Shown one piece after another: positions 4,282-54,993 of a DNA stretch of 64,000 bases. Every line of letters begins with the position of its first letter. Positions within the stretch are counted from its first letter, which is position 1. A model generated the notes under the pieces. The model had not been told where the DNA came from. It was given only the letters and a program-made list of their open reading frames with translations, and searched no databases. Source of the stretch: a bacterium HR19. GTDB taxonomy: Bacteria > Calescibacteriota > Calescibacteriia > Calescibacteriales > Calescibacteriaceae. The stretch lies in assembly GCA_002898315.1 (NCBI GenBank), contig BEHV01000004.1, positions 78,383 to 142,382 of the forward strand, read 5' to 3'. Made by a program: the position numbers and the translations under genes.

Positions 4282-4338
4282 TCAAAGTTTGCAAAAAAGA
4301 GCGAAAGAAAAATCTAAAAAATTAAATTGAAAGTAATA

Positions 4339-5133
4339 ATGAAAAAAGAGCTGAAATTTGCTTCAAATTTTTTAACATCTTTGAATTTGTTTTGTGGATT
4401 TACTTCAATTTTGCTCAGCTTTGAAGGGAAATTCAACTTTGCGTTTTATTTCATTTTTCTTGGTCTTATATTTGATATGGCAGATGGCAGGATAGCGAGG
4501 GCTCTTGGAATATCATCAAGGTTTGGACTTGAATTTGATTCGCTCGCTGACCTCACAACATTCGGCATAGCTCCATCTGCAATAGTATATAATATGTTCT
4601 TGAAAGAATTTGAATTTGGAAAAATAATTTCTTTTTTGCCGGTTCTTTCTGTTGCGATACGGCTTGCGAGATTTAATGTGAATTCTGAGACAAAAGCGAA
4701 AGAGTATTTTGAAGGACTTTCATCTCCACTTGGCGCATTCCTCATAATTTCACTTTCATTTATTTTCAAAGATGCTATTGTTCTGAACACAAAGATAACA
4801 AAAATCTTGTTTTTTCTATTGATTTTTTCTATATCGGTATTGCAGGTTAGCACCATAAAGTTCAGGTCTTTCAAAGAAGTAAAGACATCAAAGGTTATTC
4901 CTTATTTTCTCTTTCTTCCACCTGTACTTTTATGGCTACTTTTTTTCAAGCAGAAAATTTTCTTCATTATATCTATCTTTGGAATAACTTGCTATATTAT
5001 TTATAATATCATTTTTGAGAATTTGAGGTATGGAAAAGGTATATATATTCGACACGACTTTGAGAGACGGAGAGCAAGCACCGGGCTTCTCAATGACAAT
5101 AGAAGAGAAGATCAAGATGGCTCAGGCACTTGA
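4339..5133 (+). CDS. pssA: CDP-diacylglycerol--serine O-phosphatidyltransferase
   Basis: Integral-membrane enzyme that transfers CDP-diacylglycerol's phosphatidyl group to serine, the first step to phosphatidylethanolamine. The CDP-alcohol phosphotransferase motif is complete: D-M-A-D-G-R-I-A-R followed by G, D and D in SRFGLEFDSLAD, around residues 45-75. Several hydrophobic helices follow. I start at the ATG at 4339 because a TAAATT box lies 10 nt before it; an in-frame TTG at 4327 would add four residues. The reading frame does not stop before leuA but runs 104 nt into it in another frame, adding a basic, non-membrane tail of about 34 residues. Assignment to serine rather than another alcohol is by resemblance to PssA. 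Confidence 0.88.
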   Translation: MKKELKFASNFLTSLNLFCGFTSILLSFEGKFNFAFYFIFLGLIFDMADGRIARALGISSRFGLEFDSLADLTTFGIAPSAIVYNMFLKEFEFGKIISFLPVLSVAIRLARFNVNSETKAKEYFEGLSSPLGAFLIISLSFIFKDAIVLNTKITKILFFLLIFSISVLQVSTIKFRSFKEVKTSKVIPYFLFLPPVLLWLLFFKQKIFFIISIFGITCYIIYNIIFENLRYGKGIYIRHDFERRRASTGLLNDNRREDQDGSGT

Positions 5134-6586
5134 GAAACTCGGAGTAGACATAATAGAAGCTGGCTTCCCCATAACATCAGAAGGCGACTTTGAGGCAGTA
5201 AGAGAAATATCAAAAAGGATAGAAAGAGCGACAATATGCGCACTTGCAAGATGTGAGGAAGTTGATATAGAAAGAGCAGCGGAAGCACTTGCATACGCAA
5301 GAAGAAAAAGAATCCATGTCTTCATAGCAACAAGCGAAATACACATGAAATATAAACTCAGATTAACCGAAGAGCAAGTCCTTGAAAAAGCGATAAAAGC
5401 GGTAAGATTGGCAAAAAGATATGCAGATGAAGTTGAGTTCTCCGCAGAAGACGCAACAAGGTCTGACCCCGAATTCCTCATAAAAGTGTTCAAAGAGGTG
5501 GTAAAAGAGGGAGCAGATGTCATAAATATACCCGACACGGTTGGCTACACATTACCCTTTGAGTTCTATGAACTTGTAAAAAGAGTAAAAGAAGAGATTT
5601 CAAAAGTAGGGAGACCAATAATTTCTGTCCACTGCCACAATGACCTTGGACTTGCAACAGCAAACACACTCGCAGGAGTGCTAGCAGGAGCGAGGCAGTG
5701 CGAAGTGGCTCTCAACAGCATAGGAGAAAGAGCAGGAAACACTTCTCTTGAAGAAGTTGTCATGGCGATAAAAACAAGAAAAGATTTCTTCAAAATCGTC
5801 TATACAGATATAAACACAAAGGAAATTTATCCCGCATCAAGATTGCTCTCAAAGATAACAGGAGTTCAGGTCCCACCGAATAAAGCTATTGTCGGTCAGA
5901 ACGCGTTTGCTCACGAAGCTGGAATCCATCAAGATGGAGTTCTCAAAAACCCGCTCACCTATGAGATAATGAGACCAGAAGATGTAGGATTCCCAAGCTC
6001 ACAAATAATTATAGGTAAGCACTCGGGAAGACACGCCCTCGCAAAAAAACTGGCAGAACTCGGATATGAACTATCACAAGAAGAACTGAAAGCGGTATAT
6101 CAGAAAGTCAAAGAACTTGCAGACAAGAAAAAAAGAGTATATGACGAAGATATAGAAGCTATTGTTTTTGAAGAAATACTCAAAACCAAAAAAGAAGATA
6201 GATACGAGCTTGTATCGGTAAATTTTGCAGCAGGAACAGATATAATTCCTTCGGCAACTGTGATCATAAAAGATAGCGGAAAAACCCTGAAAGCTTCTGC
6301 AACAGGAGATGGTCCAGTAGATGCGGTATATAAAGCAATTCAAAACTGCCTTGATATACACCCGGAACTTATAGATTATTCTGTGAAGTCAATTTCAGGA
6401 GGAACCGACGCACAGGGAGAAGTTTCTGTTGTTCTGAAAGTAGGAGATATCTCCGCAAGCGGAACCGGGATAAGCACAGATATAGTTGTAGCATCGGCAA
6501 AAGCTTTTCTCTCTGCAATAAACAGAATAGAAAAAGCATCTAGAATAAAAAGACATCTTTCACTTAAAGAATCACGAGCTCTCTAA
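5030..6586 (+). CDS. leuA: 2-isopropylmalate synthase
   Basis: Condenses acetyl-CoA with 2-oxoisovalerate, the first committed step of leucine synthesis. The 518 residues form a full-length enzyme: a TIM barrel with DTTLRDGEQAPG at 8-19, metal-binding HCHND at 201-205 and GERAGNTSLEEV near 238, then a linker and the C-terminal LeuA regulatory domain (about 390-510) that normally gives leucine feedback inhibition. The start is firm: GAGG lies 3 nt before the ATG and the N-terminus aligns with the family start. It begins inside the pssA reading frame, so its translation may be coupled to pssA. The other leu genes are not in the window. Confidence 0.95.
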   Translation: MEKVYIFDTTLRDGEQAPGFSMTIEEKIKMAQALEKLGVDIIEAGFPITSEGDFEAVREISKRIERATICALARCEEVDIERAAEALAYARRKRIHVFIATSEIHMKYKLRLTEEQVLEKAIKAVRLAKRYADEVEFSAEDATRSDPEFLIKVFKEVVKEGADVINIPDTVGYTLPFEFYELVKRVKEEISKVGRPIISVHCHNDLGLATANTLAGVLAGARQCEVALNSIGERAGNTSLEEVVMAIKTRKDFFKIVYTDINTKEIYPASRLLSKITGVQVPPNKAIVGQNAFAHEAGIHQDGVLKNPLTYEIMRPEDVGFPSSQIIIGKHSGRHALAKKLAELGYELSQEELKAVYQKVKELADKKKRVYDEDIEAIVFEEILKTKKEDRYELVSVNFAAGTDIIPSATVIIKDSGKTLKASATGDGPVDAVYKAIQNCLDIHPELIDYSVKSISGGTDAQGEVSVVLKVGDISASGTGISTDIVVASAKAFLSAINRIEKASRIKRHLSLKESRAL

Positions 6587-6607
6587 AAATAAAACCTGTA
6601 TAAGCTT

Positions 6608-7123
6608 ATGAATAGAAAAAGCAAAGTTTTGATAATTGTTTTTTCCTTCCTTTCAGGAGCGATATTTTTCGGACTTTTCCTGCCGGGAGTTTTCAAATCC
6701 AAAAGGTTATTTGAGAGAACAACTCTGCTCGGAAAAACCCCTCCCGAATTTCTTCTGCGGGTAAACGGAGAAAAAATAAAACTTTCTGAAATAATTGAAA
6801 GAGAAAAAGACAAAGTCATCATTATAAACTTTTTTGCTTCATGGTGTACAGAATGCAGAGAAGAGAGAAAAAAACTTCTTGAACTCAGAGAAAAAGCGAA
6901 GGTTATAGGGGTTGTCTTTCAAGATACAGAGAAAAACATAAGAGATTACCTTGAAGAACTTAATCCTTACCACTTTGTATATTTTGATAGCGGAGAAGTC
7001 GCTCTTGATTACGGAATAACCGGAGTTCCAGAAACCTTTGTCGTAAAGGATGGAAAAATCATAAAAAAGTTCATAGGACCGATAGAAAAAGAAGAGATAG
7101 AAAAATTGATAAGCTCACAATAA
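6608..7123 (+). CDS. TlpA/ResA-like thioredoxin-fold protein
   Basis: Predicted membrane-anchored thiol-disulfide oxidoreductase of 171 residues facing the periplasm. It has an N-terminal hydrophobic anchor (about residues 7-28), then a TlpA/AhpC-TSA-type domain with the redox pair in SWCTECREE (Cys80 and Cys83) and the cis-proline region GVPETFVV. Such proteins reduce apocytochrome c or keep periplasmic cysteines reduced; the partner here is unknown because no cytochrome biogenesis genes are adjacent. It follows leuA by 21 nt on the same strand and is probably co-transcribed. Confidence 0.88.
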   Translation: MNRKSKVLIIVFSFLSGAIFFGLFLPGVFKSKRLFERTTLLGKTPPEFLLRVNGEKIKLSEIIEREKDKVIIINFFASWCTECREERKKLLELREKAKVIGVVFQDTEKNIRDYLEELNPYHFVYFDSGEVALDYGITGVPETFVVKDGKIIKKFIGPIEKEEIEKLISSQ

Positions 7124-7144
7124 GCAAGATGAAAAAATTGTTTT

Positions 7145-7150
7145 TAAAAT
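7145..7150 (+). promoter_or_regulatory. TAAAAT box 9 nt before the start of the 7160 gene
   Basis: TAAAAT sits so close to the ATG that a transcript from it would begin at or near the start codon. No SD is present. The surrounding 16 bases, TTTTAAAATTTATCAG at 7142-7157, recur exactly before pyrR (24229-24244). No clear -35 element at the standard spacing. Confidence 0.45.
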
Positions 7151-7159
7151 TTATCAGTA

Positions 7160-8206
7160 ATGGAAGAGGGATCAAAGAATTCAGAATACACAATACTGAC
7201 ACTGGAACAAATCAAAACTCTTCTTGAAGATAAAGATACTTCTCCAATAGCCGAACTTTATGGCAGAGGGAAACTAACAAAGTGCATGAGTTTGGGAGAG
7301 AAAGTATTACAAAAAGATATTCCTGAAAGCAAAAAGGAGCTAATAAGGAAAATAATTTCAAGGTGTAAAGAGCACTTGGAGAAAGATTTTGATAAAAAGA
7401 GTTTAATTCCGAAAATAAATAAACTCGCCGAACCAAAAGATTTAACACAAATATCAATAAGAGCTATATCAATGTATCTTACACTGACAAAATCACTTCT
7501 TGAACACCTTAAACTGCCCTACTCCTCGCATATGGCAGATAGCTGGCTCAGACACTGGGAATACTCAAATGCAATAATATTCTCACAGACCGAAAGCTGG
7601 ATGAGAATTCTTGATGCAGGAGGAACGGGAACAATTTTCTCATATCTCCTCGCTCTTTTGGGATGTCAAACTTACACCGTTGACATAGATGAAAGCAAAA
7701 TTAAATCTGCTATTTTCACCTCAGAAAAACTTGGACTAAAAAATATATTTCACCTGAAACAAGATATAAGACAGCTTGAATTTCCAGATAATTTTTTTGA
7801 TAGAGTTTTTTCAATATCTGTAATTGAACATCTAGAACCTGAAACGTTAGGAAAAGCAGTGAAAGAATTAGCAAGAGTACTGAAACCCGGAGGAATACTA
7901 ACCATCACTTTTGATTATGGAAATTACTACGGAGAAAAATTTACCCCGGGAAGTATTAAATCTCCTTCTGACCTAAAAAGAAGGATAATTGATGAATCAG
8001 GATTAGAGATTCTGTATAATCCATCTATAGAGGTAGAGGTAGAACTTCAGCCACTATTACCGTATGAATCAATGGAATATATCTTTGGAATCATAATACT
8101 GAAAAAACCCGGCGAAGAAAAAAGACCGGAAATTGTGGACCTGAGCTGGTTTGCAACAAAAAGAATTTTCGGAACAATAGATGGAACCGTAACCTTGAAA
8201 CTGTAG
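7160..8206 (+). CDS. SAM-dependent class I methyltransferase, substrate unknown
   Basis: A 348-residue protein with an N-terminal helical region of about 140 residues of no recognised family and a C-terminal Methyltransf_11-type domain. SAM-binding motifs are visible: motif I is unusual, ILDAGGTGTIFSYL (G-G-T-G-T rather than G-x-G-x-G), then TVDID as the acidic end of beta-2, and VFSISVIEHLEP plus RVLKPGGILTITFDYG as motifs III-IV. It may methylate a small molecule or a surface glycan; nothing nearby decides. It is read toward the convergent flgE gene, 64 nt away; that gap shows no terminator-like hairpin. Confidence 0.72.
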   Translation: MEEGSKNSEYTILTLEQIKTLLEDKDTSPIAELYGRGKLTKCMSLGEKVLQKDIPESKKELIRKIISRCKEHLEKDFDKKSLIPKINKLAEPKDLTQISIRAISMYLTLTKSLLEHLKLPYSSHMADSWLRHWEYSNAIIFSQTESWMRILDAGGTGTIFSYLLALLGCQTYTVDIDESKIKSAIFTSEKLGLKNIFHLKQDIRQLEFPDNFFDRVFSISVIEHLEPETLGKAVKELARVLKPGGILTITFDYGNYYGEKFTPGSIKSPSDLKRRIIDESGLEILYNPSIEVEVELQPLLPYESMEYIFGIIILKKPGEEKRPEIVDLSWFATKRIFGTIDGTVTLKL

Positions 8207-8270
8207 GAATATCATTTCTAATAAACCCGAAGGAGAAGCTCAATTCAAAAGAAAGGATATTTTTAACCAA

Positions 8271-9674
8271 TTATCCTCTTACGAGACCTGCGAGTTCAAC
8301 GAGCATAGCGTCTGAAACCGCTATAACACGAGAAGATGCTTGAAAGGCTCTCTGAAAAACAATCATATTTATGAACTCATTTGCAAGGTCAACATTGGAG
8401 TGTTCAAGCGACTTTGCAACAATCTTCCCTCTTCCACCAACAGTAGCTTTGTCTATCGCCGGCTGCCCGGAGCGAGGCGTCTCGGCAAAAAGAGTCCTTC
8501 CAACCCTCAAAAGTCCATCTTTATCTGTGAATTTAGCTATTGCGAGCTGAGCAAGAGGTCTTGAAACCCCATTAGAGTAAAAACCTATAATCGTTCCATC
8601 TTCTTCAACAGTGAATTTGAGAAGAGAACCAACGGTCTTCCCATCCTGTCTTACAAAGTTTGTTGAGAAAGGAGAAGCAAAGTGTGTAGTTCCATCAAGT
8701 CCAACCTCAACTCCTGGTTCTGGTACAGTCAGACCGAAATTAACCTCATCTAAGCTTGTTCCAAAGTTCAGCTCTATTGTCTGAGGTGAAGAAGATTGAC
8801 CATCTTGCCATGTGACCTCAAGGCGAAGCGCTTTTTCAAGAACTCCGTTTATCTTCTCAGCAGAAAGCTTTCCGTCTGTCGTGAATTCAAGAGTTCCTAC
8901 GACGGGATTTCCAAAAATATCTGGTGGTGGGAAGTTAATCGTCCCCCCTTCAACCTTTGCGAGAACCTGCCAGACATTTCTTGAATTAGGATCGGCAGGG
9001 TTTGCCTCCTGAATTTTTCTGAAAAACAAGTTTATCACTCTCGGAGTTCCCAGAGAATCATAAACCGTCACAGAAGTGTTAAACTGGTAGGTTGTCGGGT
9101 CATCTGGGTTAAAAAGAGGAAATGGCGGAGAAGGGATAACCTGCTGTCTTGAATCAAGGTTCAAACCGAAGTCAACTCTGCTGGTAGCTTTCGGAGGAGA
9201 GTCCACCTGAGGTATTTTTATATCTGTCATAGGACCGACTCTTCTTATTTGACCTGTTCTCTCATCTGTGACAACCTGCCATCCCTGAACTCGCAGTCCT
9301 TCTCTTCCATCAACGAGTTTATTGACCAAAAATCCGTCTTTATCTACTTCAAACTGTCCGTTTCTCGTATAAAAAATTCCGAAGCGGGGGACATCTTTCA
9401 CCACAAAGAACCCTTCGCCATCAATTGCCATATCTGTATCAACTCCTGTGAACTCCAAAGTTCCTTGGGTGTGAAGGACTCTGACTTCACCTATTATAGT
9501 TCCTCTTCCGAACTGCTCACCTATAAAGCCGGTCGGCAGTATATCTATGAATTCTGCCCTTGAGCCCTTGAAACCTATTGTATTTACATTTGCGATGTTA
9601 TCTGATACAACTTGGAGCGCCCTCATGTTTGACTGGACGCCCGTTCTACCAACAAACAAAGAAGGCATCGGCAT
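8271..9674 (-). CDS. flgE: Flagellar hook protein
   Basis: Structural protein of the flagellar hook (467 residues). The N-terminal flagellar rod/hook motif VVSDNIANVNTIGFKGSRAEF is at residues 23-43, the middle FlgE domain holds the DSLGTPRVINLFF element, and the C-terminal segment HSNVDLANEFINMIVFQRAFQASSRVI packs with the N-terminus in the hook core. It uses a strong SD, AGGAGGTG, 8 nt before the ATG. Third gene of the fliK-like/flgD/flgE operon; high expression is expected. Length is close to the family norm, so it has no large extra surface domain. Confidence 0.94.
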   Translation of the reverse strand: MPMPSLFVGRTGVQSNMRALQVVSDNIANVNTIGFKGSRAEFIDILPTGFIGEQFGRGTIIGEVRVLHTQGTLEFTGVDTDMAIDGEGFFVVKDVPRFGIFYTRNGQFEVDKDGFLVNKLVDGREGLRVQGWQVVTDERTGQIRRVGPMTDIKIPQVDSPPKATSRVDFGLNLDSRQQVIPSPPFPLFNPDDPTTYQFNTSVTVYDSLGTPRVINLFFRKIQEANPADPNSRNVWQVLAKVEGGTINFPPPDIFGNPVVGTLEFTTDGKLSAEKINGVLEKALRLEVTWQDGQSSSPQTIELNFGTSLDEVNFGLTVPEPGVEVGLDGTTHFASPFSTNFVRQDGKTVGSLLKFTVEEDGTIIGFYSNGVSRPLAQLAIAKFTDKDGLLRVGRTLFAETPRSGQPAIDKATVGGRGKIVAKSLEHSNVDLANEFINMIVFQRAFQASSRVIAVSDAMLVELAGLVRG

Positions 9675-9720
9675 AGCTAATTCACCTCCTTTCCGCTAAT
9701 ATTCAAAAAATCGCCAAAAA

Positions 9721-10395
9721 CTATTCCTCTTTTATTCCAATAACCTTTTCAAATTCAAAGTTTAAATTCCCTATTCCAACAAAAACATTGTTTCCCTCCA
9801 AAGATACAGAATCTATTTTTCCGAATGTAAGATGAGATGGTTTGAACTCATTTCCTGCGGAATCATGGGCAACAATTTCAAACGAGTATTGACCATCTTG
9901 AACAGCATTTCCGCTATCGTTTTTTCCATCCCAGACCACATAGTGCTTTCCAGCATCAACATCTGAAAGGTGAATCCTTTTCACAACTATTCCGCCGGGA
10001 CCTAATATCTTTACCTCAACATCTCTCGCAGGTATATCAAGTGAAAAAGCCGGGTAATTCAAAACCTTCCCTTGGGAGACAAAAAGAGTTTTGCCCTCAA
10101 TATAAGCTTTTTTTCCTATGATGTTTGACGCAGAAAAGAAATTTGCGCGAGCTATGGACTTTGAAAGCTCATCTATTGTATCTTTCAGATTCATTGATTG
10201 CTCAACTTGAGCTAAAATTGAAAGCTGAGTCATAAGGTCTTTGTAATCAACAGATGATTCAAAATCTTGGTATTTCAACTGGGTGAAAAGAAGCTTCAAA
10301 AAATCATCTCTGCTTATTTTTGTTGATGGATTTGCAACCTGTCGCTGACCAGAACCTGAAAGGTCGTTCAAAATTCCTGAAATATCGTTTGCCAT
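9721..10395 (-). CDS. flgD: Flagellar hook assembly (capping) protein
   Basis: Scaffold that caps the growing hook and guides FlgE addition (224 residues). The N-terminal region STKISRDDFLKLLFTQLKYQD (about residues 23-43) is the export/assembly signature, and the C-terminal part contains a tudor/FnIII-like pair with DAGKHYVVWDGKNDSGNAVQDG, the FlgD_ig hallmark. It lies 46 nt ahead of flgE and 29 nt behind the fliK-like gene. A GGAG-type SD (GTGAGGAGAAC) precedes the ATG. Confidence 0.93.
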   Translation of the reverse strand: MANDISGILNDLSGSGQRQVANPSTKISRDDFLKLLFTQLKYQDFESSVDYKDLMTQLSILAQVEQSMNLKDTIDELSKSIARANFFSASNIIGKKAYIEGKTLFVSQGKVLNYPAFSLDIPARDVEVKILGPGGIVVKRIHLSDVDAGKHYVVWDGKNDSGNAVQDGQYSFEIVAHDSAGNEFKPSHLTFGKIDSVSLEGNNVFVGIGNLNFEFEKVIGIKEE

Positions 10396-10424
10396 CTTCT
10401 GTTCTCCTCACTTCTCCTTTATTT

Positions 10425-11960: not shown

Positions 11961-11984
11961 GCCATAGGAAAAAATTTCCCAGAA

Positions 11985-13127
11985 TCAATCAAAGTTATAG
12001 GGATAAGAGAAAATTCCTTCCTCTGTGATTATGCCGGAGATGAAATCTGGGGGAGTTATATCAAAGACGAAGTTAAACGCCTTTGCATCTTTTGGAGCAA
12101 CCTGAATCCCACTGAAACTCTTGACCTCATCTTCCGCCCTGCTTTCAATAACTATATACTCTGAGTTTTTGTCAATTGTGGTAGAAGGGGCGAGGACATA
12201 AAATGGTACAGAAAATATCTTCGCAGAGATAGCCAACATAAAAGTCCCGATTTTATTAGCGGTAGTTCCGTTTCTCAAAATTCTATCTGCCCCTGTGAGA
12301 ACAGATATGCTTTTTGGAGTTTCATCTAAAATCTTTTTCATCATAAATGGAGCAGAAGAATCAACAATAAGGTGGAAAGGAATTTTTTCTTTCAGGAGCT
12401 CCCAAGCAGTAAGACGTGAGCCCTGAAGGAAAGGTCTCGTTTCAAGAGCAATAACCTCAAAATTTTTCCCCAACTTCTTTGCGAATTTTATAGCCGAAAA
12501 AGCTGTGCCCCAACCTCCCGTAGCAAGAGAACCCGTATTACATATAGTGAATACAAACCCATCTTGTGGAATAACCTCCGAACCCCACATGCCTATAAGA
12601 TAGCACGAGAGGAAATCTGAAAACCATATTTTTTTCGCTCTTGCGTAGATTTTGTCAAGGTCTCCTCCGCTTGCTTTAAACTCCTCTTCCATTTCATCAA
12701 GCGCTTTTTGGAGATTGAATGCTGTTGGACGGGTATTAAAAAGCGTTTCTTTTATCTCTTTAAAAACCTCGTAAGTGAGATTTTCTCTTCTCTGCACTCT
12801 TTTTTTGAGTCCATAGAAAACCCCGAAACTTGCTGATATTCCTATTGCAGGAGCACCTCTTACAATCATGCTTTTTATAGCTGATGCGACATCTCTTTCA
12901 TCGTAGCACCTCACCCACTCTTCCTTATGAGGTAAAAGACGCTGGTCTAAAAACTCAATATATCCATCTTCAAGACGAAACCACACATGTCTTTTTCCTC
13001 CCTCTGTTTCTTCGTAAAAGATTTTCTGCGCTTCTTCAAGAATCTTCTCAAATTCCTTCCTTTTTCTCTCTTGAACCAACTTTATGAAACTTTGCCTGAC
13101 AGAGTTAAGGTAGTTTTCATCTATCAT
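11985..13127 (-). CDS. mtnA: S-methyl-5-thioribose-1-phosphate isomerase
   Basis: Isomerises 5-methylthioribose-1-phosphate to the ribulose form in methionine salvage. The core has IVRGAPAIGISASFG, the active-site Cys segment FTICNTGSLATGGWG and the catalytic Asp segment GADRILRNG. At 380 residues it has an N-terminal extension of about 40 residues compared with the usual 340-350. eIF2B-like proteins share this fold, but the CNTG/GADR pair argues for MtnA. A TATAAA box lies 7 nt before the ATG and there is no SD. No other mtn gene is present; its position upstream of flagellar genes is probably accidental. Confidence 0.93.
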   Translation of the reverse strand: MIDENYLNSVRQSFIKLVQERKRKEFEKILEEAQKIFYEETEGGKRHVWFRLEDGYIEFLDQRLLPHKEEWVRCYDERDVASAIKSMIVRGAPAIGISASFGVFYGLKKRVQRRENLTYEVFKEIKETLFNTRPTAFNLQKALDEMEEEFKASGGDLDKIYARAKKIWFSDFLSCYLIGMWGSEVIPQDGFVFTICNTGSLATGGWGTAFSAIKFAKKLGKNFEVIALETRPFLQGSRLTAWELLKEKIPFHLIVDSSAPFMMKKILDETPKSISVLTGADRILRNGTTANKIGTFMLAISAKIFSVPFYVLAPSTTIDKNSEYIVIESRAEDEVKSFSGIQVAPKDAKAFNFVFDITPPDFISGIITEEGIFSYPYNFD

Positions 13128-13134
13128 ACAAGTT

Positions 13135-13140
13135 TTTATA
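13135..13140 (-). promoter_or_regulatory. TATAAA box 7 nt before mtnA start
   Basis: TATAAA followed by AACTTGT and the ATG at 13127. Same geometry as the other start-proximal boxes in this window, consistent with a leaderless message. Confidence 0.4.
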
Positions 13141-13193
13141 TTTATCTTAACATAGCAACGATTAGTATTGTAAAAAATATTTAACTTGGCAGA

Positions 13194-15500: not shown

Positions 15501-15560
15501 ATCAAAAATATATTATTATATAGACACAAACTTGAAATAGCGATAGTAAAATTTTTTGCA

Positions 15561-19199: not shown

Positions 19200-19205
19200 A
19201 TTTTA
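19200..19205 (-). promoter_or_regulatory. TAAAAT box 6 nt before protease GTG
   Basis: TAAAAT then TTTAAG and the GTG at 19193. No SD. Fits the start-proximal pattern. Confidence 0.4.
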
Positions 19206-22845: not shown

Positions 22846-23010
22846 AATTTCTCACCTCCTACTTACTCAATCTCTTGATAAACTCAAATTAAAATAACAA
22901 AAATAGGTAAAAGCGAATTACAAGAATTAAAATCTTAAAGATAAATAAAAGATAAATCAAAATAGTTTTGCCGAGATTTTTTTGATTTCTGCGAAAACTT
23001 AAATTTTGGA

Positions 23011-24228: not shown

Positions 24229-24244
24229 TTTTAAAATTTATCAG
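24229..24244 (+). promoter_or_regulatory. TAAAAT box immediately before pyrR
   Basis: The 16 bases TTTTAAAATTTATCAG directly abut the pyrR ATG and are identical to 7142-7157 before the methyltransferase gene. TAAAAT (24232-24237) ends 7 nt before the ATG. Confidence 0.45.
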
Positions 24245-27481: not shown

Positions 27482-27547
27482 AAATTCAATTTAGAAGATA
27501 ATTTTCTGAATTTTGATTTTCGGTTTATTTTTGAGGAATTGAATTTT

Positions 27548-28682: not shown

Positions 28683-28688
28683 ATTTTA
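28683..28688 (-). promoter_or_regulatory. TAAAAT box before fliM
   Basis: TAAAAT followed by TTATTCT (7 nt) and the ATG at 28675; helps choose that start. No SD. Confidence 0.4.
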
Positions 28689-29250: not shown

Positions 29251-29359
29251 ACCGAAAAATATTTTTTAATATTATAGAGCACAATTTGACAAATTTTCCA
29301 AACTCTTTTGAGCAGAAAAACCGCTGAAAACCACCCTTCTGATGTATAAAATTAAAACT

Positions 29360-31510: not shown

Positions 31511-31516
31511 TAAATT
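31511..31516 (+). promoter_or_regulatory. TAAATT box before the PBP1A GTG
   Basis: TAAATT ends 7 nt before the GTG at 31524, with TAATTGT between. No SD close enough to act. Confidence 0.35.
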
Positions 31517-31523: not shown

Positions 31524-33923
31524 GTGAAATTAGAAGCAAAAGCAAAACTGAAAAGTCAGGCGAGAAGAAAAAAAATTCAAATCAAAACAAAAAAAATCTT
31601 GTTTTTCAGCTTTATTTTCCTGCTCGGTTTTCTCGTCATAACAACACTTGTTTTTTCCTATATTTATTTCTATCCCGATTCCATAATAAATTTTCTCCAA
31701 AAGATAGATGAAGATAAAAAGATAACGAGAGCGGAAATACTACAGAAATTTTACTCTATTCCTGAGCCAACCTTTTTCATCTCAAAAAACGGGAAAACAG
31801 TGGGAATGCTGTTTGAAAGATACAAAGAAGAATTAAAGTATGATGAAATACCACAAATAACAATAAAAGCTTTTATAGCAGCAGAAGATGAAGATTTCTT
31901 CACACATAGAGGAATAAATCCCAGAGCGATAGTAAGGGCTATAATTACAAACATAAAGGAGATGAGAGTTGTTCAGGGAGGGAGCACAATAACGCAACAG
32001 CTTGCAAAAAATTTGTTCCTAACTCACGAGAGAACTCTGACACGGAAATTAAAAGAATTAACATATGCTCTCCAAATTGAAAAAGAACTGACAAAAGAAG
32101 AAATAATTTCTCTTTACCTTTCGTCAATATTTTTTGGAAATGGGGCTTGGGGTTTGAAAGCAGCAGCCAGAAACTACTTCAAAAAAGATATAAAAGACCT
32201 AACTCTTGCAGAATCAGCACTTCTTGCGGCACTTCCACGCTCTCCGATCTACTACTCACCTATAAAGTACCCCGAAAAAGCAAGAGCAAGACAAATATGG
32301 GTTCTAAAAAGAATGAAAGAACTTGGCTTCATAAGTGAAAAAGAATTTGAAGATGCAAAAAACGATAAAATCACAGTATACTCATGGGATAGTGGATTTT
32401 CAACATACTTTTGGTATCTTGAACAAATCAGAAGAGAACTCTTGAAAATGCTCGGAGATGAGAACGAGATAAAAAGAGGGTACAGAATTTTCACAAATCT
32501 TGATGAGGATTGCTACAAATTCGCACAAAAAGCACTCCGGTACGGATTAGAAAGAGCGGAAATACTCAACGGGAAACGCCCTCTCAAAGACCCGTCAAAA
32601 ATAGTTAATACAAATCAAATAGAAAGTATAACACTTCCAGACGGCGAAATAAAATATAAAGAAGAAGAAAAAATATTCACCGCTAAGATATTAGATTCAA
32701 ATCTCAAAGTGAAGGTAAAAGACGGGGAAAAAGAGTTTGAAGGATTTATAAATCCTGAGTTCTCACAGGTTTTGAAACCGGGAGAGGAAATAGTTGTGAG
32801 AAAATGTCCCGATGATAAATTCTTCTGTCCAATTCCCGAAGAGGTTGAGCTTGAAGGAGCAGTAGTAGTTATCTCTCCATCAGACGGAAAAGTTCTGTGT
32901 ATGATAGGAGGATATAACTTCCAAAAATCGCATTTTATAAGGTCTGTTCAGGCAAAAAGACAGATTGGTTCAGCAATAAAACCTATCGTATACGCAGCAG
33001 CAATAGAGACAGGGCTTTTCTCACCAGCAACAGTTGTAGAAGATACTCCAATAGTATTTGAATGGGTAAAATCAGATAGTTCTGGCGAAGAAGAATTAGA
33101 AACATGGAGACCAAAAAACATAGAAGGATTTTCAGGATATGTAACTTTGCAGGAAGCTCTTGCGAAATCTATAAACGCAGCAACAGTAAGAGTAGCAAAT
33201 AAAATAGGACTTCAAAAAATCGTTGATATGTTCAACAGGGTTGGAATAGAATTAAATGGGAACTACGATATGACAATAGCTCTTGGTTCAATATCTTTAA
33301 GTCCCCTTGAACTCGCAAGAGCATATACACCCTTTGCTAATTTAGGAAAACTCGTGGAACCATACTTTATCAGCAGAATAGAAAAAGGAAAAAACATCAT
33401 ATTTGAATACGAAACATCTGAAACAGAGGTTATACCAGAGGATTTAGCTTTTGTTGTAGCATGGATGATGAGAAACGCGGTGTTGCACGGCACGGGTTGG
33501 AGAGCAAAATCTCTAAAAATTCCGGTAGCCGGTAAAACAGGAACAACAAACGATGGAAAAGATGCATGGTTTGTCGGATTTACTCCTGAAATTCTTGCAG
33601 TGGTGTGGGTAGGGAAAGATGATTTTACTCCGATAGGTAGAAAAGTAAATTCAGGTCCAACAGTAGCGGTTCCGATATTTGTTGAATTTATGAGGAAATA
33701 TCAGGAGAAACTAAAAGGAAATGGATTTAGCATTCCCGAAGGAGTTGAATTTGCAAAAATAAACCCAATAACGGGAGAGGTTTCGGATGAGAATTACTAT
33801 ATTATGGCTATTCCGAAAAGAGATGAGCAGAAGGAGCTTATTGAAGAGGAGAAGAAAGATGAGCAAAGCGGAGATAGAGAGGGAGAAAAGAGAGATTTCA
33901 AAGGAGATATATTTGATTTCTGA
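31524..33923 (+). CDS. mrcA: Class A penicillin-binding protein 1A
   Basis: Bifunctional peptidoglycan synthase (799 residues). A basic cytoplasmic tail and one membrane helix (about 27-50) precede the GT51 glycosyltransferase: EDEDFFTHRGINPRAIVRA with the catalytic Glu, and GGSTITQQLAKNLFLTHERT. An OB/linker region sits between. Transpeptidase motifs are GSAIKP (Ser-x2-Lys), KSINAAT (Ser-x-Asn) and KTGTT. The tail (about 765-799) is acidic. It begins with GTG. The next gene on the strand is tRNA-Leu, 36 nt away. Confidence 0.95.
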   Translation: MKLEAKAKLKSQARRKKIQIKTKKILFFSFIFLLGFLVITTLVFSYIYFYPDSIINFLQKIDEDKKITRAEILQKFYSIPEPTFFISKNGKTVGMLFERYKEELKYDEIPQITIKAFIAAEDEDFFTHRGINPRAIVRAIITNIKEMRVVQGGSTITQQLAKNLFLTHERTLTRKLKELTYALQIEKELTKEEIISLYLSSIFFGNGAWGLKAAARNYFKKDIKDLTLAESALLAALPRSPIYYSPIKYPEKARARQIWVLKRMKELGFISEKEFEDAKNDKITVYSWDSGFSTYFWYLEQIRRELLKMLGDENEIKRGYRIFTNLDEDCYKFAQKALRYGLERAEILNGKRPLKDPSKIVNTNQIESITLPDGEIKYKEEEKIFTAKILDSNLKVKVKDGEKEFEGFINPEFSQVLKPGEEIVVRKCPDDKFFCPIPEEVELEGAVVVISPSDGKVLCMIGGYNFQKSHFIRSVQAKRQIGSAIKPIVYAAAIETGLFSPATVVEDTPIVFEWVKSDSSGEEELETWRPKNIEGFSGYVTLQEALAKSINAATVRVANKIGLQKIVDMFNRVGIELNGNYDMTIALGSISLSPLELARAYTPFANLGKLVEPYFISRIEKGKNIIFEYETSETEVIPEDLAFVVAWMMRNAVLHGTGWRAKSLKIPVAGKTGTTNDGKDAWFVGFTPEILAVVWVGKDDFTPIGRKVNSGPTVAVPIFVEFMRKYQEKLKGNGFSIPEGVEFAKINPITGEVSDENYYIMAIPKRDEQKELIEEEKKDEQSGDREGEKRDFKGDIFDF

Positions 33924-45139: not shown

Positions 45140-45145
45140 TAAAAT
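45140..45145 (+). promoter_or_regulatory. TAAAAT box before the NurA-like gene
   Basis: TAAAAT, TTAATAAG (8 nt), then ATG at 45154. No SD. Confidence 0.4.
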
Positions 45146-46968: not shown

Positions 46969-46974
46969 ATTCTA
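46969..46974 (-). promoter_or_regulatory. TAGAAT box before tlyA
   Basis: TAGAAT, ACCTGAT (7 nt), then ATG at 46961. No SD. Confidence 0.35.
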
Positions 46975-46982
46975 TGAAAAAA

Positions 46983-48530: not shown

Positions 48531-48601
48531 AACAAAAACTTAAAATTTTTTCAGCTTTTTATGTTTAATGCATTACAATAAATTACCACACAGAGCATTT
48601 A

Positions 48602-49039
48602 TTATTCAAATGGATATATTTTTGATTCTTGGAAATTCACACGAAAAGATTTTTTCTCTCCTCCGAAGCCGAAGATAGTGAGATCAATTTCTGTATATCT
48701 TGATGGTTTTGAGATTTTCAACTCAACATCAAGAAAGAGTGAGTTTACGGGAATGTCTGAGCAATCTTTTGAACTCGGAGCACATAAGCTAATATATTTA
48801 ACATTCACGAGCTTCAAAACGAGGTTCCCTTGAACATCAAAATTCATCTCTTTTATTTTTATCTTGGGATTACTTAAAGAGCTTACTCCTCTTGATGCAC
48901 ATGAGGAGACAAAAAAACACAAAAAGAACCAGAGAAAAACAGAAGAAAAAAATAATTTTGATATAACAAAAATGTTTCCATACTTTGATAGAATGTTTTT
49001 GATAGGGTGTTTTCTTTTTCTGCAAAAGCTTTTTTCCAT
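48602..49039 (-). CDS. Predicted lipoprotein, unknown function
   Basis: 145 residues from the ATG at 49039. Basic region, one hydrophobic stretch, lipobox FFVSSC, then a beta-rich domain of about 100 residues (IKIKEMNFDVQGNLVLKLVNVKYISL) that resembles a LEA14/WHy-like fold, which is only a guess. Cys residues at CAPSSKDCS may pair. The longer frame to 49201 runs into tyrS on the other strand, so I reject it. The 35-nt gap to tyrS holds both start regions. Confidence 0.6.
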   Translation of the reverse strand: MEKSFCRKRKHPIKNILSKYGNIFVISKLFFSSVFLWFFLCFFVSSCASRGVSSLSNPKIKIKEMNFDVQGNLVLKLVNVKYISLCAPSSKDCSDIPVNSLFLDVELKISKPSRYTEIDLTIFGFGGEKKSFRVNFQESKIYPFE

Positions 49040-49062
49040 CGTTGAAAACAAAAGCTTAATCT

Positions 49063-49068
49063 TAAATT
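49063..49068 (+). promoter_or_regulatory. TAAATT box before tyrS
   Basis: TAAATT, TTTGAG (6 nt), then ATG at 49075. No SD. The box is only 24 nt from the divergent lipoprotein start. Confidence 0.35.
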
Positions 49069-49074
49069 TTTGAG

Positions 49075-50244
49075 ATGGATGAAAGAAAGAAAAACAGGTT
49101 GAAGAGAAACCTGACAAACATAATTGAAGAAGAGGAATTTTTTGAGCTTTTAGATAGCGGGAGGGAGTTGAGGATAAAGTTAGGGATTGACCCAACCGCA
49201 TCGCTGATTCATCTTGGGCATCTCGTTTTGTTTTTCAAACTAAGAGAGTTTCAGGAAGAGGGGCATACTGTCTGCCTCATAATAGGTGATTTCACAGCTC
49301 AAATAGGAGACCCATCGGGCAGAATATCAGCAAGACCCAAAATGAAAAAGGAAGAGGTGAGGGAAAACGCTAAAAACATTCTTGAAAAATGCATGCAGTT
49401 CCTGGTGAAAGAAAAGACAAAAGTGTATTATAACTCTGAATGGTTTGAAAGCATGAGCACATCAGAACTTTTTGAACTCTTCTCAAAATCAACAGTTGCA
49501 AAGATAATCTCACGAGATGATTTCAAAAAAAGAATGGAACAGAATGAACCGCTTTTTGTCCATGAATTTTTATATCCTTTCCTGCAAGCTTACGATTCGG
49601 TAGTCGTCAGAGCAGACATAGAGTTAGGTGGAAACGACCAACTTTTCAACCTGCTCCTTGGAAGAGAGATAATGAGAGAGTACGGACTTAAACCGCAGGT
49701 ATGTATCACAACACCAATTTTAGAGGGACTTGACGGAAAACTGAAAATGTCAAAAACCTATGGGAACTACATATCTCCTGACGAAAAAGCAGAAGATATA
49801 TTTGGCAAACTTATGGGAGTAGATGACAACCTTATCTTCAAGTATGCAAAACTTCTCGGAAGATACGAAAGCGATGACGAAATTGAGGATTTGAAAAAAC
49901 TGCATCCGTTTGAAGCAAAAATTCAAATTGCTTTCAGAATAACAAAAATCTTAAAAGGAGAAGAAGAAGCAAAAAGGGCTATGGATTGGTTCAACAAAGT
50001 GATAAGAGAAAGAGAAATACCAGAAGATATACCAGAAATAGAGGCAAATGAAGGAGATATACTGCAAAAAGTCCTAAAAGAGAAGGGATTTATAAAGAGT
50101 GTATCTGAAGCTATAAGAATCACCGAATCGGGGGGCATATACATAAATGGAGAACAAATAAAAGAAAAATTCTTTCAGTTGAAAAAAGGAGAATACAGAG
50201 TAAGAATTGGAAAAACAAAATTCGTAAGAGTAAAAGTGAAGTGA
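49075..50244 (+). CDS. tyrS: Tyrosyl-tRNA synthetase (TyrZ-type)
   Basis: Charges tRNA-Tyr. 389 residues: class I motifs HLGH (46-49, the HIGH counterpart) and KMSKT (224-228, KMSKS in most), tyrosine-binding GGNDQLFNLLLGR (about 185-197), and a C-terminal S4 domain (about 325-389). The KMSKT form and overall length match the TyrZ branch rather than E. coli TyrS. It is monocistronic and divergent from the lipoprotein. Confidence 0.95.
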   Translation: MDERKKNRLKRNLTNIIEEEEFFELLDSGRELRIKLGIDPTASLIHLGHLVLFFKLREFQEEGHTVCLIIGDFTAQIGDPSGRISARPKMKKEEVRENAKNILEKCMQFLVKEKTKVYYNSEWFESMSTSELFELFSKSTVAKIISRDDFKKRMEQNEPLFVHEFLYPFLQAYDSVVVRADIELGGNDQLFNLLLGREIMREYGLKPQVCITTPILEGLDGKLKMSKTYGNYISPDEKAEDIFGKLMGVDDNLIFKYAKLLGRYESDDEIEDLKKLHPFEAKIQIAFRITKILKGEEEAKRAMDWFNKVIREREIPEDIPEIEANEGDILQKVLKEKGFIKSVSEAIRITESGGIYINGEQIKEKFFQLKKGEYRVRIGKTKFVRVKVK

Positions 50245-50271
50245 ATTTCTTACACAAATGCGTTAATTTTT

Positions 50272-51837
50272 CTATTTTTTCTCCTCAATTTCCTTTTTCT
50301 CTTGTATTTCTGCGCCTTGATGACTTTGAGTTTCATCATGAGAAGTTTCCTGTGAAATCTGAGATATTTCCTCTTTCACCGCTTCTCTGAATTTTTCTTT
50401 CAGAGTTTGTTTTCCCTCTCTCACTTGTTCAGGTTGAGATAAAAGCGATTCAAGTTCTGATTTCAGGACATCTTCTATTATTTTTTGCCTCCACTTTATA
50501 GATGATTCAAAATATCCCTCTCTCATCTCAATTTTCACATCTCCTCTTTCAACGGTTTTATCTGGTATTATCTCTACATCTTGCGGAATCTGAGCGAATT
50601 TTTTGACGAGCTGAAAATCATCTTCATTCACTCTTACTTTTATTATTTTGAAATCCTTTACTTTTTCAAGAGCATCTTTCAGAACTCTTATTACAAGTTC
50701 TTCATCTTTTATTGCATCTACCATAAGAATTGTTTTGAGAGCAACGAGTGTGAGGTGAAGGACTATTTTCGGGAAGTCATCGGAAAATCTCTCTTTCGCA
50801 TAGTGGAGTTCATCTGAAATTTTTCTCATCATCTCAATAGCGTACCTTCCTTCCGAGATAGATTTTTTATATCCATCTTCATATCCTTTTTCTTTTCCTT
50901 CTTCATAACCTTTTTCAAATCCATGTTTATAACCTTTTTCTTCGGCTTCTTTTTCTATTTCTCTTGAAAGGTCAATACTTCTTGAGACCGCTTCATTTAT
51001 TATTTTTTCTGCTTCTTTATAGGCATTTTCTATTATTTCTTTCGCTTTTCTTTCGGCTTCATCTAATCTTCTTTTCGCTTCAACTTCTGCACGAGAAATT
51101 ATATCTGTTCTTATCTTATCTATAATCTCGTGAATAAAGGGTTTTCTTCCACCTGAAACATCCTCTCTTTGAGGTTCGGGCGATACTTGAAATTTCTCCT
51201 TTTCCTTTGCTTCCATAGAAGAGATTTTACTCTTTTCCTCAGTATCTTTCAATTGAACATCCGACTGACTACCTGAAATCTCTCCATGTGGTACCGAAAT
51301 TCTCAACCTTCTTTTTATATTCTCCTCACCTTCTACTGTTTTAGAGCTACCAGAAAGGAACTCAACTATTTTTCTTTTCTTCCTCTCTTCTGATTCTGAA
51401 AAAATATCTTCAGATTCCTCTTTTTTGTCCAAAACTATCTCTTCCTCAACATATATTTTTTTGTGTTCTGGTTCTTCAAAATATTCCGAATCAAAAATTT
51501 CAAATCCACTCAGTTTCAACTCCTTTTTGTCTTCTTTTGGTTCTTCTATTTCCTCTACTTCTGGGATTTCCGCTTCTGGCTCAATTTCGTAGATAGGTAT
51601 TTCTTCTTCAAATTTTTTTTTGAGCTCCAGCTCCTCTTCGGAAAGCTCTGATATTTTCTCTCTCTCAACCTGCGGGATTTCTAATTGAATTTCTTCTGGC
51701 TCTCCTCCGAATTCGGCTTTCTCTTGGTATTCTTCTTCCTTCCCATATTTTTCCTCTTCTTCAATAAATTTACCAATATCTATTTTTTTTCCTGTTATGA
51801 TCTCATAAAGCGGAATAAATTTTTTCTCTCCTATCAT
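50272..51837 (-). CDS. fliH: FliH-like flagellar export ATPase regulator with long acidic N-terminus
   Basis: 521 residues, twice the FliH norm. The first half (1-240) is Glu/Lys-rich and low complexity, without a fold I recognise. The second half is FliH-like: a coiled coil (about 240-300) with KHGFEKGYEEGKEKGYEDGY, the G-x3-G helix-repeat found in FliH, then the V-ATPase-E-like C-terminal domain (about 345-470) with IRVLKDALEKV and GYFESSIKWR. FliH binds the FliI ATPase. No fliI, fliG or fliJ adjoins it; it is convergent with tyrS, 27 nt apart. Confidence 0.8.
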   Translation of the reverse strand: MIGEKKFIPLYEIITGKKIDIGKFIEEEEKYGKEEEYQEKAEFGGEPEEIQLEIPQVEREKISELSEEELELKKKFEEEIPIYEIEPEAEIPEVEEIEEPKEDKKELKLSGFEIFDSEYFEEPEHKKIYVEEEIVLDKKEESEDIFSESEERKKRKIVEFLSGSSKTVEGEENIKRRLRISVPHGEISGSQSDVQLKDTEEKSKISSMEAKEKEKFQVSPEPQREDVSGGRKPFIHEIIDKIRTDIISRAEVEAKRRLDEAERKAKEIIENAYKEAEKIINEAVSRSIDLSREIEKEAEEKGYKHGFEKGYEEGKEKGYEDGYKKSISEGRYAIEMMRKISDELHYAKERFSDDFPKIVLHLTLVALKTILMVDAIKDEELVIRVLKDALEKVKDFKIIKVRVNEDDFQLVKKFAQIPQDVEIIPDKTVERGDVKIEMREGYFESSIKWRQKIIEDVLKSELESLLSQPEQVREGKQTLKEKFREAVKEEISQISQETSHDETQSHQGAEIQEKKEIEEKK

Positions 51838-51981
51838 AAAATATATAGATTAATCTTGCAAGCTTAATGTTTCACTTATAGCTAAAATCGTAATTTTGAG
51901 CTTATTTATTTACATTTATCTGACAAGTCCATACAAAATAATTTCAAGAGCAAAGAAACATTAAGAGTTTTTAATTTTTTT

Positions 51982-52803
51982 ATGATGAGGAAGGCGATCT
52001 TCCAGAGCGCTTTTTTGACGGGAATTCCTGTGCTCGGATTCGCACTCTTTTCAAAGACAGCCGACCTGAAGGAATTTGCAATTTTCATCAGTGCATCCTT
52101 TTTATGCGCAATCTCTGTGTCTTTCCTTAACCTATTTTTTGAGAGCAGGAGGAAGATTTTTCTGGCATGCAGTTTAATATCCATCGCAACGAGCCTGATT
52201 TTATCGGGACTTAAAGCTGGCTTATCGTTCAACTCCTTCTTTATTTTCATCACATATTGTATATGGGTATTCTATTATCTCGCAAGGAGAGGCATAGAGT
52301 TTGCAGATATACCTTTGCATTTTTTTGGCGGATTTTTGATATTCTGGCTGGGAGCACTCTGGAACAACAACGAAATTCAAAAAATAATCAATCTCCTATC
52401 TGAAAAAAAGCTGATTTTATCATCGCTTTTTATATCCTTCGCTTTTCAAGGCGGATACATAATAGACCTAATTCAAGACATAGAAGAAGACAGAAAGTCA
52501 GGACAGAAAAACATAGTTGAGAAAATAGGAAAAAGGAGAGCAATTTTTATCTCACAAATCCTTTTTACTCTATCTTACCTCTGTGCGATGAATCTCGCAA
52601 AAAATGTTGAAATAAAGATGCTGATGAGTGTGTTCATGATAGCGCAAAACTTTATTGTTCTCGTGAAAAGAGAAAGCATAGAAAAAGAAGATGGATTAAA
52701 AAAATACAGAGCTTTTTACAGAGCAGTATTTTCTGTAGCATCAGCGCTAATTTTAGCTTCACATCAAACTGATTTTTTTCTGAAATTTTTGAGGCAGGTC
52801 TGA
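51982..52803 (+). CDS. UbiA-like prenyltransferase, possibly impaired
   Basis: 273 residues with about eight membrane helices. The second Asp-rich motif is present (IIDLIQDIEEDRKSGQ, residues around 150-168), followed by KNIVEKIGKRRA. The first Asp-rich motif (N-D-x2-D) that binds the prenyl diphosphate Mg is not visible; the aligned region is VSFLNLFFESRRKIFL. It may be a divergent or inactive member. No quinone or haem genes are near. Its 3' end overlaps the archaemetzincin gene on the other strand by 40 nt. Confidence 0.65.
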   Translation: MMRKAIFQSAFLTGIPVLGFALFSKTADLKEFAIFISASFLCAISVSFLNLFFESRRKIFLACSLISIATSLILSGLKAGLSFNSFFIFITYCIWVFYYLARRGIEFADIPLHFFGGFLIFWLGALWNNNEIQKIINLLSEKKLILSSLFISFAFQGGYIIDLIQDIEEDRKSGQKNIVEKIGKRRAIFISQILFTLSYLCAMNLAKNVEIKMLMSVFMIAQNFIVLVKRESIEKEDGLKKYRAFYRAVFSVASALILASHQTDFFLKFLRQV

Positions 52804-53300
52804 CAGAAATCTTTTGTTTTCCTATCAACATCAAAAACAGAATTTGAAAAGCTCATAACACATAGGGGGTTATTGCAATGCAAAAGCCCAAAAACGTGAC
52901 CTATCTCATGGGTAATTTCTTTTTCAATCCTTGAAAAGTATAAAACTTCATCTTGCGGGAATCCGTAAAATACAGGGTCAAGGCGCAAAAGAGAAACAAG
53001 AGCTAAAAGAGATGTAGGAGAAGCTAAACCGAAAACAAAGTTCAAATCCCCAAAGTAAATATCTTCTTTCGTTATCCCAAGAGCTACTTCACTTTTTTTG
53101 AGTTGTGATAGATAAGATAAAATTAGACCAGCGTTGAACTGCTTTCTTGAAGGAGAGAATGCATTAGATGGTATTTTCAGATAACCTCTTTCAAAAATAG
53201 AAAATCCAAGGTTTTCTAATAGGTTCAAAACGAAATCTTTCTCTCTTACGAAGTTTTTCTCGGTAGAAAAGAGGAAGAAAAGATCAACTGCTCTTGACAT
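52764..53300 (-). CDS. amzA: Archaemetzincin family zinc metalloprotease
   Basis: 178 residues. The metzincin zinc motif H-E-x2-H-x5-H is HEIGHVFGLLH at 131-141, followed by Cys142-x4-Cys147-x-Met149 and then Cys166-x2-Cys169, the extra zinc site typical of archaemetzincins. Such proteins occur in archaea and vertebrates and in few bacteria. No signal peptide, so it is cytoplasmic. The natural substrate is unknown. Overlaps the convergent UbiA-like gene by 40 nt. Confidence 0.9.
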   Translation of the reverse strand: MSRAVDLFFLFSTEKNFVREKDFVLNLLENLGFSIFERGYLKIPSNAFSPSRKQFNAGLILSYLSQLKKSEVALGITKEDIYFGDLNFVFGLASPTSLLALVSLLRLDPVFYGFPQDEVLYFSRIEKEITHEIGHVFGLLHCNNPLCVMSFSNSVFDVDRKTKDFCQTCLKNFRKKSV

Positions 53301-53346
53301 ATTAAGATTAATTTTAATGAGGTTGATCTTTTTGCTCTTTCTGGTG

Positions 53347-54190
53347 TTAAATTTCAGAGAATTCAGCTCTTTTCTTCACGAGCCGTCCGTTTTGATAATC
53401 TTCAATAGCTTGAATTATTTCTTCTTTTGTGTTCATAACAAACGGTCCCCATCTCGCAACTGGCTCACGCAAAGGTTCAGCACTTGCCAAAAGAAGATGC
53501 GAATCAGAATGAGCAAATATCCAGAGATAATTTCCCGAAAAAACCACAATATGTCCATCAGATACCTTGACCTTATCTGGAATAAACTCTATCAGACCTT
53601 CTGAAACAACTACGAATGAGTTATTTTCTGCTGGGAGCGATAACTTCAGCTCGGCACCTTCCTTAATCTCAATATGTTTATATATAACCTTGTAGTATCC
53701 ATGCTCTTCCATCGGCTCACCAACAAGATTTATTATTTTCAATCCTTTAAGTCCATCTTCAAGTTCAACAGAGGACTTGAAATTGAAGTAAAAAGGGTCT
53801 GACATTTTGAACTTTTTAGGAGAGTTAAGCCATAGCTGATAACCCCACAAAAAACCTTCCTTCATAGCAGGCATCTCAGAATGTACAACCCCGCTTCCAG
53901 CGTTCATCCATTGGAGAGAATTAGAAGAAAGCATGAGAACCTGTGCTATCTTTATGTTCAAAGGTTCCGGAAATCATATATGTGAGGGTTTGAAAACCTC
54001 TGTGAGGATGAGGTGGGAAGCCAGCGGACCAATCCCTCTCATCTCTGCTTTTGAACTCGTCTAAAAGCAAAAATGGGTCAAGGTAGTTCAGTATATGGGT
54101 TCCGATGTACCTTTTTAGCTTTACTCCTGCTCCATCTACAACTTCAATTCCGGGAAGGATGAGTTTTATCTTCACAAATTCAAGCATCAT
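53347..54190 (-). pseudogene. Pirin-family protein, frameshifted
   Basis: Two adjoining frames make one pirin. The first (54190-53921) has [27 protein letters not shown], the metal-binding start of the cupin; it ends a few codons later at TAA. The second frame (from about 53961 to 53347) carries QWMNAGSGVVHSEMP, the rest of the cupin, and ends in EPVARWGPFVMNTKEEI. Normally about a dozen residues join the HKDS and QWM parts; here fewer, in shifted frames near 53945-53955, so a small deletion or shift has occurred. Pirins are Fe-dependent quercetinase-like or regulatory cupins. Whether this is true decay or an assembly error is open. Confidence 0.8.
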
Positions 54191-54338
54191 AAATAAAAAC
54201 TAATTCTTTTTGAGCAACCTATCTGTTAGATATATCACACAAAAATAAAAATTTTTAATTTAATAAGTTTAAGAATTCCTTTCAACCCTCATTTGATTTG
54301 AGTTAAAGAAGACAAGTCTTTTGGACCGAAAAACGCAC

Positions 54339-54977
54339 CTATCTTTTATTTTTCTCAATTTTGATTAGCTTTAGTTTTTTTGGTTCCTCTGCGGTCATCA
54401 CTTCTCCTGAAACCTTGAATAGAATTAACCCTTTTCTTTTTGCGTATTTTTCTACTCCCTCACCAAAGCTTATTCCTGCTATCGCTCCGCAAAGGGTATA
54501 ACCCGGAAAATCCTCTCCCATAAAATACTCAAAGTTCTTCATGTCTTCTAAAAGGTCATCTACATCTCGGGATTTCGCATACGTTTTTGCAGATACAAGA
54601 AGAATAAATTTTTTGTCACGGGATACAACCAGAGTATCGTATTCAGCGTTCTTACCATTCTTTGAGACCTTGGTACGGGGGTGAACTCTAACATCTGAAA
54701 ACCCCTTTTTTCTCATGAACTCTTCGGCAGACGGGGAGACCATTCCTTCAACGAACCTTCCCCAGCTATCTGTGATTTTATTTACTTTCTCATCACTTTT
54801 TCTCAGCTGCTCGTCTGTTTTTCTCAATTGTTCATCTGTTTTTTTCTGCGATTCCCGCAGTTCTCTTATCTGCTCGGTTGTTTCCTTCTGAAATTCTCGC
54901 AGTTGCCTTATTTCAACAGCAATTTTTTCCACCAACCTCTCAACTCTTGATAACCTGTCATTTTTTCTTGAAGGCAT
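54339..54977 (-). CDS. Coiled-coil DUF3782-like protein with PD-(D/E)xK-type fold
   Basis: 212 residues. Residues 15-75 form a coiled coil with repeats of KTDEQLRK type (TDEQLRKTDEQLRKSDEK). The C-terminal domain has the order helix, AEYDTLVVSRDKKFILLVSAKTY, as in archaeal Holliday-junction-like nuclease domains, but the usual Glu-x-Lys is Ser-Ala-Lys, so catalysis is doubtful. Similar proteins are frequent in thermophiles and cyanobacteria with no known role. A TAAAAT box is 6 nt before the ATG. Confidence 0.7.
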   Translation of the reverse strand: MPSRKNDRLSRVERLVEKIAVEIRQLREFQKETTEQIRELRESQKKTDEQLRKTDEQLRKSDEKVNKITDSWGRFVEGMVSPSAEEFMRKKGFSDVRVHPRTKVSKNGKNAEYDTLVVSRDKKFILLVSAKTYAKSRDVDDLLEDMKNFEYFMGEDFPGYTLCGAIAGISFGEGVEKYAKRKGLILFKVSGEVMTAEEPKKLKLIKIEKNKR

Positions 54978-54983
54978 AGAGTA

Positions 54984-54993
54984 ATTTTAATCT
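54984..54993. promoter_or_regulatory. Overlapping divergent TAnnnT boxes
   Basis: On the minus strand TAAAAT (54989-54984) stands 6 nt before the ATG at 54977; on the plus strand TAATCT (54988-54993) stands 6 nt before an ATG at 55000. The two boxes overlap, a compact bidirectional arrangement. Confidence 0.35.

Follow-up and report, generated by a model that had tools for sequence, protein, structure and literature searches.

Recurrent TANNNT boxes before start codons in Candidatus Calescibacterium as probable -10 elements of leaderless-type transcripts

Introduction

In a 64,000-nucleotide stretch of bacterial DNA (hereafter the window), a TANNNT box recurs a few nucleotides upstream of start codons, and the question is whether it belongs to a promoter, to a ribosome-binding signal, or to chance in an A/T-rich genome. 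The preliminary description of this DNA took it for a -10 element so close to the start codon that little or no leader remains, a reading that is supported by the enrichment and by the comparison of promoter and ribosome-site behaviour presented below. Such arrangements are known from other bacteria. TA-led genes have been found in 207 of 953 bacterial genomes; they account for about 20% of actinobacterial genes, and in Deinococcus-Thermus for about 40% (Zheng et al. 2011; PMC3160421). In Deinococcus, a TANNNT motif some 6-7 bp before the start codon replaces the Shine-Dalgarno (SD) site, in D. radiodurans in about a third of the genes, and reporter and qPCR tests have shown that it acts as a promoter (PMC12340547). 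Predictions with GeneMarkS-2, as quoted in PMC9581028, attribute leaderless transcription to 21.6% of the bacterial species.

Genomes, gene calls and definitions

The source genome belongs to Candidatus Calescibacterium, an uncultured hot-spring bacterium of the candidate phylum Calescibacteriota (Candidatus Calescibacteriota in NCBI). Its nearest Lon matches are from a metagenome-assembled genome (98%) and from Candidatus Calescibacterium nevadense (84%). Its assembly (G000) comprises 1.88 Mb, with 82% completeness and approximately 37% GC. The sample consisted of about 464-469 kb of this genome and 190-430 kb from each of four relatives, one of which (G002) is in the same genus. Another relative, G003, overlaps the window by orthology; it was left out of the pooled tests on intergenic gaps, phased tracts, frame periodicity and T at -1, and was included in the TAAAWT position counts and the tRNA-gene counts. 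Genes were called with a 3-periodic Markov coding score that makes no use of upstream signals, and all starts are those of our own calls rather than annotated ones. Genes with promoter room are those that are divergent from their neighbor or are separated from a same-strand neighbor by 60 nt or more. T1 denotes the first T of TANNNT, and distances are counted back from the start codon. A motif search by EM, run without anchoring and against a zero-order background, returned A-runs only and was replaced by position-specific tests.

Boxes in the window

The preliminary description had named 14 places, and at 13 of them a TANNNT box is present with T1 at -11 to -16 of a plausible start. The one that fails is mtnA (13135), which has no TANNNT at -16 to -11, the nearest lying at -22, and only a TATAAA near -14. 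At 4323, 28683 and 29347 the starts originally proposed are a few codons too early, and the box fits the downstream ATGs at 4339, 28675 and 29360 instead. The gene names given there agree with Pfam as far as Pfam tells. The places are the following:

4323-4328, plus strand: TAAATT, -16 of ATG 4339 (not of TTG 4327); CDP-alcohol phosphatidyltransferase, pssA-like
7145-7150, plus strand: TAAAAT, -15 of ATG 7160; methyltransferase
13127-13150, minus strand: mtnA upstream region, TAAGAT at -22; does not support the claim
15507-15512, minus strand: TATATT, -12 of ATG 15500; zinc-ribbon protein; newly found
19200-19205, minus strand: TAAAAT, -12 of GTG 19193; trypsin-like protease
23000-23005, plus strand: TAAATT, -11 of ATG 23011; dxr
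24232-24237, plus strand: TAAAAT, -13 of ATG 24245; phosphoribosyltransferase, pyrR-like
27488-27493, minus strand: TAAATT, -12 of ATG 27481; penicillin amidase family
28683-28688, minus strand: TAAAAT, -13 of ATG 28675 (not TTG 28693); fliM
29347-29352, plus strand: TAAAAT, -13 of ATG 29360 (not ATG 29342); no Pfam match
31511-31516, plus strand: TAAATT, -13 of GTG 31524; bifunctional penicillin-binding protein
45140-45145, plus strand: TAAAAT, -14 of ATG 45154; no Pfam match
46969-46974, minus strand: TAGAAT, -13 of ATG 46961; tlyA-like
48537-48542, minus strand: TAAGTT, -12 of ATG 48530; newly found
49063-49068, plus strand: TAAATT, -12 of ATG 49075; tyrS
51847-51852, minus strand: TAATCT, -15 of ATG 51837; newly found
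54984-54989, minus strand: TAAAAT, -12 of ATG 54977; no Pfam match

Examples of boxes that had been overlooked are those at 3933, 15507, 20489, 37260, 48537 and 51847. Among the divergent genes of the window, 10 of 16 carry a box at -16 to -11, against 2-5 of 16 in other bins of equal size. The window is otherwise gene-dense, apart from about 0.8 kb (59474-60264) without an ORF of at least 100 amino acids.

Enrichment over chance

The position-specific box before start codons is confirmed as a real observation. In the window's genome, 88 of the 245 genes with promoter room have TANNNT at -15 to -11, against 37.5±6.0 in dinucleotide shuffles (z 8.4), and for the stricter TAAAWT the same genes give 47 against 7.6 (z 14.7). 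Internal in-frame ATGs are preceded by TANNNT and TAAAWT in only 7.0% and 0.6% of cases, respectively. The four relatives reach z 5.0-7.0 for TANNNT and 5.2-8.4 for TAAAWT. Relative G001 was at one stage thought to lack a strong box, an idea that was dropped when more sequence and narrower bins revealed a weaker one. In 400 kb of Bdellovibrio qaytius (38% GC) passed through the same pipeline, no excess was found among divergent (z 1.5), gapped same-strand (z -1.8) or operon genes (z 1.0). The enrichment over shuffled A/T-rich sequence that the preliminary description called for is therefore seen in five genomes and is missing from a control genome of similar GC.

Expressed as a share of genes, the box excess in the five genomes amounts to 23-37% of the promoter-proximal ones, or 16-31% when all genes are counted. 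Leaderless-type genes would make up roughly a quarter of those with promoter room. Because chance should account for about 40% of the TANNNT matches in this interval, a box does not prove the case for any individual gene.

Promoter element or ribosome site

Several properties of the box, as judged from its distribution, favor a promoter -10 element over a ribosome site. In the pooled genomes the enrichment grows with the upstream gap, from z 0.2 for overlapping genes through 2.1 at 1-25 nt and 6.0 at 26-59 nt, to 8.7 for larger same-strand gaps and 11.7 for divergent genes. Genes that overlap their upstream neighbor show no enrichment at all, with TANNNT in 7 of 60 (6.5 expected) and TAAAWT in none of the 60. 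The same box is found at -20 to -16 of the mature 5' end of tRNA genes, where 29 matches were counted among 55 genes, against about 10 per bin.

The exact placement of the box points in the same direction. T1 of TAAAWT occurs 19 times at -15, 27 at -14, 33 at -13, 32 at -12 and only 3 at -11, and this sharp downstream edge, with the box at -12 or further and hardly ever nearer, is what would be expected if the start codon has to be part of the transcript. A T at -1 is commoner with a box (170/257, 66%) than without (179/353, 51%; p 1e-4), as expected if initiation takes place at a pyrimidine-purine step. No reading-frame periodicity was found in the positions of TAAAWT.

Upstream of the box, no TTGACA peak was found at a 17-nt spacer, and the canonical -35/-10 organization of sigma70 promoters is thus not seen. 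Alignment on the box reveals instead A maxima at -38, -27 and -18.5 and T maxima at -33 and -24. The power of these A/T tracts at 9-12 nt was matched by none of 500 jittered alignments, and the phased tracts, which reach as far as 45 nt before the box, probably aid RNA polymerase binding. As a separate observation, TTGACA-like hexamers (at least 4 of 6 matches) are in excess at 31-32 nt before T1 in four genomes (45 against about 20 expected), which corresponds to a spacer of some 25-26 nt rather than 17; this excess may belong to an UP-like T-tract/A-tract.

Like TA-led genes, the genes with the box have a -10-like signal some 10 bp upstream, above background, and lack an SD site; that the box is a promoter element is indicated indirectly, by the tRNA promoters, the gap gradient and the phased upstream tracts. 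A ribosome site of the A/T-rich Bacteroidota type should appear irrespective of promoter room, which the unenriched overlapping genes contradict.

Coexistence with Shine-Dalgarno genes

Box genes and SD genes are largely distinct sets, as only 2 of 49 SD genes of the window's genome carry a box, against 86 of 196 non-SD genes (p 1e-8). This mutual exclusion supports the earlier proposal that two translation modes exist side by side. The strong SD sites attributed to flgE, rplP and lon proved correct on inspection by eye, and the anti-SD of the 16S rRNA is intact (GGATCACCTCCTTTCT). Many operon-internal genes, as well as rplP and flgE, use ordinary SD initiation, and strong SD sites precede 16-24% of the genes in the five genomes. 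About half of the genes, in all five genomes, have neither a strong SD nor a box; wrongly called starts, boxes of low strength or some other way of initiating translation could explain them.

Proposed mechanism and alternatives

The best explanation, to which we assign a probability of about 0.88, is that the boxes are sigma70-type -10 elements placed so as to give leaderless-type mRNAs. The TANNNT box, mostly TAAAWT, would be the -10 element of a sigma70-type promoter located near the start codon and, with a normal discriminator, the transcript would begin at the start codon or at most about 4 nt before it. Such mRNAs would have no room for an SD site, and the ribosome would presumably enter on the 5'-terminal AUG (or GUG). 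The term leaderless, as originally applied, holds in that the leader would be very short, and is better replaced by a leader of 0 to about 4 nt, not strictly none, because T1 ranges from -12 to -15. Where T1 lies at -14 or -15, a leader of 1-4 nt is as likely as none.

A variant of this explanation retains the -10 boxes and assumes leaders of mostly 1-5 nt, with entry of the 30S subunit or with assistance from S1, rather than true leaderless initiation. The spread of T1 over -12 to -15 and the presence of an S1-like protein in all five genomes speak for this variant, but the commonest spacings, which leave 6-7 nt from the box to the start codon, match the experimentally studied Deinococcus motif (PMC12340547), and we regard it as unlikely. 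Considerably less probable is that the box is an A/T-rich, non-SD signal for ribosome binding or an unstructured 5' leader, as in Bacteroidota, with transcripts starting further upstream. Although the box sits at the SD position and excludes SD sites in an A/T-rich genome, as such a signal would, it is absent before overlapping genes, which need ribosome binding equally, it also stands before tRNA genes, which yield no protein, and it is accompanied by phased A/T tracts up to 45 nt upstream. Chance matches, helped by in-frame TAA stops and by the choice of starts, must contribute at 37% GC, where TANNNT is common and expected in about 15% of genes per 5-nt bin. As an explanation for the whole set, chance is refuted and has a negligible probability, given the z values of 8.4 and 14.7 against dinucleotide shuffles, their repetition in five genomes, the lack of frame periodicity and the negative control genome, but it is true of some individual genes.

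Comparison with known systems

Having -10 elements close to the start codon, Calescibacterium resembles Deinococcus-Thermus, in which TANNNT just before the start codon also takes the place of the SD, and differs from it in its TAAAWT box, its 37% GC genome, a spacing of up to 9 nt and the phased upstream A/T tracts. In Mycobacterium tuberculosis and other Actinobacteria, a TANNNT -10 element adjoins the start codon and SD genes coexist (PMC3898074), although these genomes have a high GC content and mapped transcript starts. The sigma70 promoters of Campylobacter jejuni and Helicobacter have a gnTAnaAT -10 element without a -35 and a periodic upstream signal at about -17, -27 and -38, with some leaderless mRNAs preceded by TAnAaT (PMC3847290). 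The phased A/T tracts of Calescibacterium resemble the periodic signal seen in Campylobacter. Leaderless mRNAs are few there, in contrast to an excess of about a quarter of promoter-proximal genes in Calescibacterium. The mixture of SD and leaderless starts within one genome is also described, in PMC9581028, for the species that GeneMarkS-2 predicts as leaderless.

A literature search found no report joining leaderless genes with Calescamantes or Calescibacterium and, as this organization is known elsewhere, it represents a known kind in a new lineage. An uncultured hot-spring candidate phylum would thereby join the bacteria with a well-supported mixed leaderless/SD system, a point of relevance to the question of an ancestral origin of leaderless initiation. 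On the practical side, gene finders that assume SD sites may misplace starts in these genomes, and the box corrects three within the window.

Conservation in relatives

In orthologues from a close relative, T1, A2 and T6 of the box are kept at 42 of 42 positions, against 87% of flanking bases. Among distant orthologues, the conservation of the box is modest (25/48 vs 23/74, p 0.02). The dxr orthologues of three relatives are also preceded by boxes, as is the G001 orthologue (51% identity) of the penicillin-binding protein starting at 31524, whose flanks have diverged.

Sigma factor

The primary-type sigma factor of the window's genome is encoded at G000:C11:57306-57998 (L127), and those of the relatives at L126 and L128-L130. 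The best RpoD-type protein in each of the five genomes scores 208-229 bits, under the family cut-off of 354. A Trp pair in region 2.3 helps to melt the -10 box. All five Calescibacteriota genomes have FSTYAVPW in this region, with Val-Pro-Trp in place of the near-universal Thr-Trp-Trp. Of 30 RpoD loci in other genomes, 29 have TWW and the remaining one did not match the motif. It is speculation, and rather doubtful, that the modified sigma factor, with Pro for the first Trp of region 2.3, together with -35-less TAAAWT promoters with phased tracts, favored leaderless expression throughout the phylum. A motif had hinted at DnaG upstream of the sigma gene, an idea that was abandoned, as Pfam gave no confirmation. 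In the window's genome, region 4.2 of this sigma factor keeps the TRERVRQ motif, and the second RpoD-like match is presumably RpoH-like.
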